Below are positions 30,974 to 33,037 of a DNA stretch of 64,000 nt, one piece after another (within the stretch, counting starts at the first letter, position 1; each line of letters begins with the position of its first letter). Below the pieces are notes generated by a model. The model searched no databases, was not told the origin of the DNA, and saw only the letters and a list, made by a program, of their open reading frames with translations. Origin of the DNA: Winogradskyella sp. Its GTDB lineage: Bacteria; Bacteroidota; Bacteroidia; Flavobacteriales; Flavobacteriaceae. Where the stretch lies: the NCBI RefSeq assembly GCF_016744625.1, contig NZ_JADGDZ010000011.1, positions 1-64,000 on the forward strand. Reading direction: 5' to 3'. The position numbers and the translations under genes are program-made.

Positions 30974-31006
30974 TTTGGAAATAATAAAAGTCTAAGTTTA
31001 TATTTG
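30974..31006 (+). promoter_or_regulatory. Promoter of the pcfJ-like leader
   Basis: TTTG (30974-30977), 21 bases, TATATTTG (30999-31006): an excellent match to the Bacteroidota promoter. Transcription should start near 31012. It is the only clear promoter between the CYTH and PcfJ-like genes, so the transcript must pass two terminators to reach pcfJ. Confidence 0.75.
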
Positions 31007-31035
31007 CAACCAATTAAAACAAACAATTAGAACTA

Positions 31036-31128
31036 ATGCAAGTAAAAAATTCGACATATCATCTATTTATTATTGGACGTGAGCCAATATTAGATTCGGG
31101 TTTTGCAACGTGTATATCCAAGATATAA
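31036..31128 (+). CDS. Leader open frame 1 (30 codons)
   Basis: A 93-base frame starting about 24 bases after the predicted transcription start. It encodes a 30-residue peptide beginning MQVKNSTYHLFIIGR and ending FATCISKI. Codons 20-24 overlap a segment (31093-31105) able to pair with the 5' arm of the terminator that follows. No repeated control codon stands out. Its value is probably in being translated, not in the peptide. The equal length of leader frame 2 supports reality. Confidence 0.5.
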   Translation: MQVKNSTYHLFIIGREPILDSGFATCISKI

Positions 31129-31183
31129 GAGTTACCAAAAAAATATATTCAAAACCCGAGTTGTAAAAATCTCGGGTTTTTTT
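31093..31183 (+). promoter_or_regulatory. Attenuator 1: antiterminator/terminator pair
   Basis: Terminator: 10-bp stem AAAACCCGAG / CTCGGGTTTT (31151-31160 / 31171-31180), loop TTGTAAAAAT, T-run to 31183. Alternative: 31093-31105 inside leader frame 1 pairs with 31150-31162 over 13 positions (nine-base Watson-Crick core CGGGTTTTG / CAAAACCCG plus A-T and G-U pairs), which uses up the 5' arm of the terminator. The two structures exclude each other, as in amino-acid or antibiotic-type attenuators. Confidence 0.65.
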
Positions 31184-31201
31184 ATTGCTAAAATTTAAAA
31201 A

Positions 31202-31294
31202 ATGAGAACAGAAATAAACCATAATGCAGTAGTCGCAAATCAACTTTTAGTAAAGTTAATCTGCAGACATACATTTGAACCGAAAATCCTTTAG
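31202..31294 (+). CDS. Leader open frame 2 (30 codons)
   Basis: A second 93-base frame, starting 18 bases after the T-run of terminator 1, encoding 30 residues from MRTEINHNAVVANQLL to TFEPKIL. No promoter is seen between terminator 1 and this ATG, so it is reached only by read-through. Codons 26-28 contain GAACCGA (31277-31283), complementary to the terminator 2 arm. There is no sequence similarity to frame 1 beyond length and position. Confidence 0.45.
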   Translation: MRTEINHNAVVANQLLVKLICRHTFEPKIL

Positions 31295-31360
31295 TAAAAC
31301 AAAGCGATTATGATGCTAATAAAGCTCGGTTCTGTAAAAAGAATCGAGCTTTTTATTTTT
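31277..31360 (+). promoter_or_regulatory. Attenuator 2: antiterminator/terminator pair
   Basis: Terminator: 12-bp stem AAAGCTCGGTTC / GAATCGAGCTTT (31321-31332 / 31341-31352, one G-U), loop TGTAAAAA, then TTTTTATTTTTT. Alternative: GAACCGA in leader frame 2 (31277-31283) pairs with TCGGTTC (31326-31332). The loop repeats the TGTAAAAA of attenuator 1. The switch is weaker than module 1 (7 bp). Confidence 0.58.
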
Positions 31361-31369
31361 TAAAAAATT

Positions 31370-31447
31370 AAAGCCAAAAACAAATAAATGACAATTATTA
31401 AACCACGTTTACATATCGTAATTACAAGTTTAAGTGGCTTTACATAG
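31370..31447 (+). other. Third leader element: 19-codon frame within a short stem
   Basis: A 60-base frame (31388-31447; peptide MTIIKPRLHIVITSLSGFT) lies between AAAGCCA (31370-31376) and TGGCTTT (31435-31441), which can pair across it. No terminator follows; the PcfJ-like ATG is 25 bases downstream. It may be a translational-coupling version of the two modules before it, or coincidence. Confidence 0.35.
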
Positions 31448-31472
31448 CTAATAAGATGTAAATAAAATTAAA

Positions 31473-32948
31473 ATGAAGCCTATATGCAAAAATCAAAATA
31501 TAAATAAAAAACCTAGTGCTTATATAGCCTTGGTTAATAAAATCTATAGCGAGTCTAATAAGCCACAGCGCTATAAAGGAACTATGGAATCTATGTTGAG
31601 AGAGTTCTTCTCTAAGACAAGTAAATATAGATATACATGGAAAAGAGACACCTTCAAAGCCTTGCTTGTCCATTTGTATAACCAAAAGTGTTATGCTCTT
31701 TTACGCAGTTATGCTGAGGTAGAAGTATTACATAATATTAGTGCTTTTGGTAATAGAATATATAATGACATTGAGGGTTGGGAAGCTAGTAACGTAACAA
31801 AAGAGGAACAAATAAGTAGTTTGATAAAGTATTGTTTTGCTAAATACGAGACTCCTAAATTTCTAGAATACTGTTTTTATGGTAGCCAAAAATTGTACAT
31901 GCTTTGGTATATACAATTAGGTAAAGGTGTTAGTGTTAAAGACTTGTCTCAAATGCCAATAAAGCTCACTAGTAAAATGGCGCACGAGTTTAGAAATGCT
32001 CCAGATTATTATAGTGTTTTTAAGGCTTTGCGTTATGCTCAAGCCATAGGTTGTGGAGCAACAAAAGAAGCTGCCAAGCTTATAGCGTTTTCTAGTTTGT
32101 CTAGAACTCGAGATAATGAAGAAGTCTTTTGGACTACAGTGGTTCAGTTTTTTTCTCAAATTGAACGTTTGGAAACTAACGAATTGGACCAAATTGTAGA
32201 TTACTTGGCTTATAAGTATCGTGAGAACAATTCATTTTCTATGAAGGGTAGAACATTCAATGCCTTACTCAATCAAACGAATGATTGGCATCGTACAATG
32301 TATATTAATCGTGAAATTGAAAATGTTTTATCCTGGAAATCATCTGGTATAAAACCATTGTATAAAGCTGAAATTATTGGAGGACAAACCATAGTTTTTA
32401 AAACTATAGAACTTTGTAACTCAATAGAGCTTTATGACGAAGGTAAAGCAATGCAACACTGTGTTGCCGAATATGATGAAGATTGTGAAATAGGGGATAG
32501 TCGTATTTTCTCTTTGCAAAGTCAAGCAGAGAATGAAGCACCAACGCGATTGGCAACAATCGAAATTGCGTTGCCTTCATTTGAAATTGTACAAGCAAAA
32601 GCAAAATACAATCAAGAGCCTAATAAAAAGACAATGATGTTAATAGAGGATTGGATTAAGAGTTCTAATATAAAGAAAGTAAAAAAGGTAATACCTAACT
32701 ACGAACCTATTGCTCATGCAAGAGCAGTAGAGCGTACTGAAATGAATAATTTTGATTTTGGTGCTACTTTGATATTTAGAATAATCCTTCTTATTCTTTA
32801 TTTATTTTTAATGTTTGGTAGATTGTTGACTTCACAACCAACAATTAAACCAGATATAGAAAACTATCCCTTTTCTATAGATATGAAACATCAGTTAGAT
32901 TCAATATTTAAAGAAAAGTATGGTGTTAAACCGTTTAAGGTTGAATAA
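31473..32948 (+). CDS. PcfJ-like protein with C-terminal membrane anchor
   Basis: 491 residues. The first 270 are helical and repeat-like, with no recognised domain. Residues 300-400 match the PcfJ-like family: IELYDEGKAMQHCVAEYDEDCE with Met327, Gln328, His329 and Cys330, then SRIFSLQSQ and TRLATIEIALPSFEIVQAKAKYNQEP. A hydrophobic helix (about 429-452, TLIFRIILLILYLFLMFG) and a roughly 40-residue tail follow, so the protein is probably held in the inner membrane. PcfJ is named after a gene of conjugative plasmid pCF10; its biochemical role is unknown. No conjugation genes are nearby. Expression appears to be under the tandem attenuator leader upstream; a terminator follows. Confidence 0.72.
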   Translation: MKPICKNQNINKKPSAYIALVNKIYSESNKPQRYKGTMESMLREFFSKTSKYRYTWKRDTFKALLVHLYNQKCYALLRSYAEVEVLHNISAFGNRIYNDIEGWEASNVTKEEQISSLIKYCFAKYETPKFLEYCFYGSQKLYMLWYIQLGKGVSVKDLSQMPIKLTSKMAHEFRNAPDYYSVFKALRYAQAIGCGATKEAAKLIAFSSLSRTRDNEEVFWTTVVQFFSQIERLETNELDQIVDYLAYKYRENNSFSMKGRTFNALLNQTNDWHRTMYINREIENVLSWKSSGIKPLYKAEIIGGQTIVFKTIELCNSIELYDEGKAMQHCVAEYDEDCEIGDSRIFSLQSQAENEAPTRLATIEIALPSFEIVQAKAKYNQEPNKKTMMLIEDWIKSSNIKKVKKVIPNYEPIAHARAVERTEMNNFDFGATLIFRIILLILYLFLMFGRLLTSQPTIKPDIENYPFSIDMKHQLDSIFKEKYGVKPFKVE

Positions 32949-32978
32949 AAAAACGCTCAGAATTTTCAGAGCGTTTTT
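32947..32978 (+). terminator. Terminator of the PcfJ-like gene
   Basis: Stem AAACGCTC / GAGCGTTT around AGAATTTTCA, directly after the stop, with T's on the plus strand. It may also serve the convergent gene at 33038. Confidence 0.75.
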
Positions 32979-33037
32979 ATTTCGACAAACTAAATACTAT
33001 ATCTGAAGAATATTTTTAGAAAGCCTCTTTATATTTT

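Follow-up and report, generated by a model that had tools for sequence, protein, structure and literature searches.

The PcfJ-like gene of the window (by which we mean the whole analysed stretch of 64,000 nucleotides, from a marine flavobacterium) is preceded by two leader modules which we take, with good though not complete confidence, to be tandem ribosome-mediated transcription attenuators reporting a general failure of translation and switching on the repair of RNA and ribosomes. The frames, the alternative helices, their conservation and their gene context are borne out by comparison of related sequences; neither termination nor induction has been shown, and there are no expression data. 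The same leader design, which stands upstream of operons for RNA ligase and ribosome rescue in dozens of kindred species, probably activates repair genes when protein synthesis fails. For few bacteria is it known what induces their RNA-repair operons, and such leaders would give a simple and testable answer for dozens of Flavobacteriaceae, namely that the cell senses the failure of its own translation.

The leader of the PcfJ gene

All the features described here lie on the forward strand. The sequence from 30974 to 31006 reads as a Bacteroidota-type promoter, TTTG-N21-TATATTTG (TTTG at 30974-30977, a gap of 21 nt, then TATATTTG at 30999-31006), and transcription is expected to start just downstream. 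It is followed by leader frame 1, of 30 codons (MQVKNSTYHLFIIGREPILDSGFATCISKI, 31036-31128), the stop of which lies 22 nt 5' of intrinsic terminator 1, a 10-bp hairpin followed by a T run (31151-31180, -13.3 kcal/mol with its tail). Frame 1 contains an ACATAT motif 18 nt inside it (31054-31059), a predicted hairpin P1 (31068-31092) and, adjoining P1, the 5' arm of an antiterminator (31093-31105). This arm can form 13 consecutive pairs with the 3' arm at 31150-31162, which overlaps the 5' arm of terminator 1. P1 itself does not overlap the antiterminator arm.

Module 2 is built in the same order: leader frame 2, again of 30 codons (MRTEINHNAVVANQLLVKLICRHTFEPKIL, 31202-31294), has its stop 26 nt 5' of terminator 2 (31321-31352, fold energy -18.2, with a T-rich tail to about 31360), and its antiterminator 5' arm GAACCGA (31277-31283) can form 7 bp with 31326-31332, inside this terminator. 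The original prediction had described the promoter and the whole of module 1 (length of the frame, distance of the stop, 10-bp terminator, pairing of 13 positions) just as the sequence has them; for module 2 the frame and the 7-bp pairing stand, while the terminator, given there as 12 bp, has 13 pairs including one G-U. It had also claimed that no second promoter exists and that PcfJ stands alone. No full promoter match was found between the two modules, and PcfJ is indeed a lone gene, the next one being on the opposite strand; RtcB is absent from the genome of the window, and so is PrfH, the only release-factor-like proteins of this genome being two full-length ones and one of the size of ArfB.

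Folding predictions were made for the leader RNA in the absence of a ribosome. The module 1 RNA, up to the antiterminator, folds as P1 followed by the 13-bp antiterminator (-24.5 kcal/mol), and once module 1 is finished its minimum-energy fold still consists of P1 and the 13-bp helix. For module 2 the complete RNA favours the terminator, except when the antiterminator has formed first.

Downstream of the two modules there is a third short frame, MTIIKPRLHIVITSLSGFT (31388-31447), whose stop lies within a hairpin TTTACAT...ATGTAAA (31439-31462) directly 5' of the PcfJ start; relatives have the equivalent CTTTAC..GTAAAG. Frames ending in ...GFT like this one are also found in loci L017, L004, L015, L018, L019, L020 and L024, and a reading of the sequences of L016, L022, L023 and L026 shows none there. 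The third frame and its hairpin (31388-31462) may form an additional layer of control, at the level of translation. The PcfJ-like gene itself (31473-32948, 491 aa) matches Pfam PF14284 with an E-value of 6e-13 and 49.2 bits against a cut-off of 25. It is followed by a terminator-like hairpin at 32951-32979, inferred from the sequence alone, which suggests a transcript of a single gene.

Two classes of leaders and their alternative helices

Relatives of PcfJ were gathered by a search of whole genomes and from named genomes; in the latter, the window PcfJ used alone as query gave no match, and a query made from an alignment was needed. Their leaders fall into two classes. Class A, the type of the window, comprises 22 leaders from Flavobacterium, Kordia, Leptobacterium and other Flavobacteriaceae, with two terminator modules 5' of PcfJ. 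The succession of modules behind a single promoter, which had been proposed for the window, recurs in this class. Class B comprises 39 leaders from Winogradskyella, Lacinutrix, Tenacibaculum, Polaribacter, Aureisphaera and Sediminicola. Its sequence is unrelated to that of class A (GCTTCGnGAC against GTCCGAAGC), and its anatomy is the same: a frame, here of 24-28 codons, a P1 hairpin at the same place in mid-frame, an antiterminator arm, a stop and a terminator.

When both classes are pooled, 29 of the 33 leaders have TAnnTTTG upstream of frame 1, and none has a full promoter match between module 1 and PcfJ. Class B often has a promoter-like box between its two modules, so that strict control in series is not general. 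A further upstream module with its own frame of about 20 codons exists in 22 of 38 class B loci. Some relatives are partial: L027 has one module, the module 2 helix is poor in L031 and L038, and in L047 the leader was not found. The non-flavobacterial PcfJ loci have no clear leader of the window type.

We compared the covariation of each helix with that of shuffled alignments. For class A, 85% of the cells of the module 1 antiterminator are paired, with 17 two-sided changes and a covariation of 0.259 (0.158 when shuffled); for the module 1 terminator the values are 96% and 0.293 (0.135). In module 2 the antiterminator is short, with 84% of its cells paired and a covariation of 0.152 (0.102), and the terminator reaches 0.253 (0.171). 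The case of the module 2 antiterminator is weaker than that of module 1, a version slid by -1 having a similar covariation score. For class B, the antiterminator was left out of the model used for the alignment; it is nevertheless 95.7% paired, shows two-sided changes in 14 cells and reaches 0.144 against 0.074. P1 of class B covaries at 7 of its 7 pairs (0.469 against 0.186); it was part of the alignment model, and its score is therefore biased in its favour. The aligned sequences are kin, so that the shuffle counts are not probabilities and overstate the significance. With this reservation, the alignments indicate that the terminator and the antiterminator, which exclude each other, are both under selection.

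Could these features be ordinary terminators which happen to lie near chance short frames, PcfJ being silent or weakly read through? AT-rich DNA is rich in short frames, and module 2 alone is within the range of chance: its competing helix was equalled in 8.5% of the shuffles of the frame (p 0.085), whereas that of module 1 was equalled in none of 200. Hence module 2 rests on the comparison. In 35 related sequences including the window (about 0.4 Mb, both strands), the PcfJ leaders contain 68 terminator-like hairpins, and 50 of these are accompanied by a short self-standing frame and a strong competing helix; of the 92 hairpins of this kind outside the leaders, 4 are (Fisher p 2e-21). Moreover, leave-one-out profiles, built without the window, detect module 1 in it with an E-value of 6.6e-17 and module 2 with 2.9e-11. 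Taken with the covariation, and with the fact that all of the 30 best matches of the class B model discussed below have a repair gene context, this leaves chance as the least credible of the explanations that we weighed, to the point of being nearly negligible. The observation made in the window is correct and not due to chance.

Inferred translation of the frames and the ACATAY motif

The frame used here is open in every one of the 55 aligned modules; the two alternative frames are open in only 0-8 modules of a given set. In class A, frame 1 is open in 22 of 22 leaders (the alternative frames in 1 and 4 of the 22) and frame 2 likewise in 22 of 22; it must be noted that the frames of the class A alignments were partly selected for being open. 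The class B set was mostly found by an RNA model which includes no test of the frame, although 11 training rows do have the frame; an ATG frame of 24-28 codons begins at the first model position in 38 of its 39 rows. The leader stop lies mostly 14-33 nt 5' of the terminator. Nearly every leader has its antiterminator arm close to nt 54-72 of the first frame (it is shifted in L025 and L184). The peptides are barely conserved (pN/pS 0.75-0.99, no clear third-position excess), and in class A the arm is read in two phases, by 15 and 7 of the 22 leaders. As the frames are kept open while their peptides are hardly conserved, it seems, as far as aligned sequences can tell, that the leaders read translation itself and not one codon or one peptide.

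A short leader frame thus precedes an intrinsic terminator, and an antiterminator which overlaps the frame excludes this terminator, as is required of an attenuator. We infer the following course of events. RNA polymerase would start at the one promoter and transcribe leader frame 1. Under normal translation, a ribosome would have reached some point from about codon 15 to the stop by the time the terminator is made, where it would cover the antiterminator arm or separate it from its partner; the terminator would then form and transcription would end. A terminating ribosome would occupy the space that separates the arm from its partner and leave the terminator free, a geometry which is inferred and for which the size of the ribosome footprint was taken from general knowledge. 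If initiation fails, or if the ribosome stalls early (because of damaged ribosomes, cut tRNA or rRNA, or drugs), P1 and the antiterminator would form first and the polymerase would read through. Since P1 does not overlap the antiterminator, an untranslated leader should be ON, unlike that of trp. Module 2 would repeat the test, so that both frames would have to go untranslated for PcfJ to be expressed, and two modules in series would lower the leakage. This AND logic is an inference without measurements behind it, and the translation of the frames is likewise inferred.

The motif ACATAY recurs near nt 15-21 of the frames: in 18 of 22 class A first frames, always in phase 0 (1.5 expected), and in 14 of 22 second frames, in phases 1 and 2 (2.5 expected). 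As it keeps its distance from the start while its phase differs in the second frames, we regard it as an RNA-level element. In the window ACATAY is present at 31054, 31267 and 31411, and it is also seen in the A2, A3 and A5 leaders, about 15-21 nt past the start and independently of phase.

This motif bears on an attenuator specific to one amino acid or tRNA, in which a given codon, the best candidate being the Tyr codon 8 of frame 1, would stall the ribosome when its tRNA is cut or uncharged. Codon 8 does specify Tyr in 21 of the 22 first frames of class A, and genes of tRNA-Tyr(gta) and tRNA-Pro(tgg) lie inside several class B-led operons. However, the codon tables of the leader frames contain no run of codons for a regulatory amino acid such as trp and his leaders have, Tyr is found at codons 6-9 in no more than 14 of the 38 frames of class B and in just 1 of the 22 second frames, and the other phases of ACATAY in the second frames place the conservation at the RNA level. 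We consider such codon-specific stalling improbable, even if it is the most serious of the rival readings.

Alternatively, ACAUAY could be the target of an endoribonuclease whose cut splits the start codon from the arm, so that translation downstream stops while transcription continues. The conservation of the motif just 3' of the end of the initiating ribosome, in both modules and in several phases, would fit such a tripwire, and RtcB seals RNA ends made by nucleases of this kind. But no nuclease was identified, 21 of the 39 leaders of class B lack the motif, and a cut is unnecessary for antitermination if translation stops anyway, so that we give this idea very little credit. The sensing of translation itself remains the reading that we prefer.

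Repair operons and known attenuators

Gene identities were established with Pfam and NCBIfam (RtcB PF01139; PrfH TIGR03072, above the cut-off; RlaP PF10127). RtcB follows PcfJ at 29 of 36 flavobacterial loci; of these 36 loci, 30 have a TPR protein and 17 have PrfH. The window, with PcfJ only, does not meet the definition of an RtcB/PrfH repair operon, which its relatives do meet: it is an exception among them in having a lone PcfJ. Its solitary gene has kept the leader all the same, as have those of L025, L029, L031 and L038.

The class B RNA model alone was searched against 397 Flavobacteriaceae genomes and the 30 best matches were examined. All 30 precede RtcB, PrfH, their partner genes or PcfJ; among these 30 only 3 precede PcfJ, all in or near the training set, and the other targets are RtcB, alone or together with two small charged proteins, the TPR protein (plus a second RtcB type) and PrfH. 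Hence it is to operons of RNA repair and ribosome rescue that such leaders belong, rather than to PcfJ in particular. The class A model R2 gave strong matches only at PcfJ loci, the remainder being terminator noise. Going beyond the original prediction, the gene neighbourhoods indicate that PcfJ belongs to RtcB/PrfH repair operons and that a related leader would control such operons without PcfJ; the function of PcfJ itself is inferred. As the same kind of control stands before RtcB, PrfH and their partners in the relatives, we propose that a loss of translation is what gives the signal, and that the cell responds by repairing RNA and rescuing ribosomes.

A riboswitch bound by a metabolite or a protein (for instance, repression by PcfJ or another repair protein), with incidental frames, would also account for the strong covariation of P1, and ACATAY is phase-independent as expected of a binding site. 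This would leave unexplained that the leader stands before RtcB, TPR and PrfH genes without PcfJ, and that nearly every leader of both classes has retained a frame whose stop lies between the arm and the terminator, despite changes of phase and peptide. Nor does any Rfam family match the leader at its curated gathering score; the only matches at this level, Flavo-1 and tRNAs, lie elsewhere in the loci. We judge a riboswitch to be unlikely, a little more so than the Tyr codon. At relaxed thresholds Rfam returned matches to the PyrG leader, the L10 leader and others, which are far under their cut-offs and reflect the terminators.

That the leader works by translation-coupled attenuation, as had been claimed, is supported by the conserved frames, by the position of their stops and by a covarying terminator with an exclusive antiterminator in many genera; that a general defect of translation is sensed, by the weak conservation of the peptide and by the arm being read in two phases. 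The alignment of leaders from related genomes, proposed there as a check, did bring out covarying stems and frames with competing pairings. The claim that no such regulation had been described is only partly right. The closest precedent, by analogy, is the PA5471.1 leader of the PA5471 (armZ, RtcB-like)-PA5470 (prfH) operon of Pseudomonas aeruginosa, for which a transcription attenuation relieved by impaired ribosomes has been proposed (PMC12057347, PMC3516279). There too, an RtcB-like/prfH pair is preceded by a short leader frame and by predicted terminators, an arrangement which the window, with PcfJ only, does not have and its relatives do. It differs in having one frame of 13 codons about 250 bp upstream, in a proteobacterium, and in its link to efflux control, whereas the flavobacterial leaders have frames of 24-31 codons, one to two modules, a covarying P1, and PcfJ and other partners. 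Tandem attenuators are also known from mgtCBR of Salmonella, where one leader is reported to contain two short frames controlling the structures that decide on transcription (PMC3641672); its genes, signals and gene context are unrelated to ours. In the open-access literature we found no description of a Bacteroidota leader of this kind for RtcB, PrfH or PcfJ.

Other systems share parts of the design. In the ribosome-protection genes vmlR, hflXr, bmrCD and msrD, which are under uORF control, impaired translation of a leader frame blocks intrinsic termination (PMC9226507, PMC6310831, PMC4191407, PMC10314930). vmlR, however, relies on a frame of 3 codons together with an anti-antiterminator, and certain drugs induce its response; P1 of the window does not overlap the antiterminator, so that a complete lack of translation should turn its leader ON. 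The trp and his leaders have a leader frame, a terminator and a mutually exclusive antiterminator as well; the window differs from them in having no regulatory codon run and in that its untranslated leader is predicted ON and not OFF. As to the genes, the RtcB2-PrfH operon of E. coli ATCC25922, which protects from colicin E3, a nuclease cutting 16S rRNA (PMC9223846), resembles the relatives of the window in its RtcB and PrfH content; that paper does not mention a leader or attenuation, and the window has PcfJ only. Accessory TPR and nucleotidyltransferase genes have been described as well (PMC6514570).

Together with PA5471.1, our leaders suggest that distant bacteria have independently placed RtcB/PrfH genes under translation-sensing attenuators. 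A bolder proposal, which we regard as speculative and would not expect to hold, is that at least two unrelated classes of leader RNA, plus a third type of module upstream of class B, have converged on a peptide-independent sensor asking whether translation is alive, for genes of RNA repair, ribosome rescue and tRNA replacement, with the phase-independent ACAUAY as an extra trigger, for example a site of cutting or binding tied to damage. The leader models can in any case be used as a finder of new repair partners: PcfJ, the TPR protein, the charged proteins and tRNA genes turned up in this way.

Genes of tRNA-Tyr(gta) and tRNA-Pro(tgg) and one of tRNA-Ser(gct) are situated within, or at the far end of, operons that have a class B leader (L190 2490-2563, L191 2577-2661, L192 221-294, L193 2488-2651, L197 588-673, L198 590-663, L041 9472-9659), which looks as though the cell produced spare tRNAs along with its repair enzymes. 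Flavo-1 RNA (RF01705) is found directly 3' of RtcB in the repair operons of L036 (7100-7184) and L044 (8713-8783).

The predicted structure of PcfJ (mean pLDDT 86) gave no Foldseek match at an E-value of 0.001. Its predicted C-terminal domain (residues 290-412, approximately) can be aligned, though only weakly, with GNAT acetyltransferases, RimL among them (6% identity and an rmsd of 3.6 over 106 residues; best Z 7.3), a likeness which may reflect only a common arrangement. Beyond Flavobacteriaceae, relatives of PcfJ adjoin RtcB or PrfH in L052, L053, L054, L055 and L075 (Chitinophagales, Runella, a Bacteroidetes MAG, a gammaproteobacterial MAG and Micavibrio), where no clear leader of the window type is seen. 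Large viral contigs of 88-494 kb (L092-L098) encode relatives of the window PcfJ, and a tandem pair of PcfJ genes precedes RtcB in L044 (4474-7295) and L047 (2902-5667).
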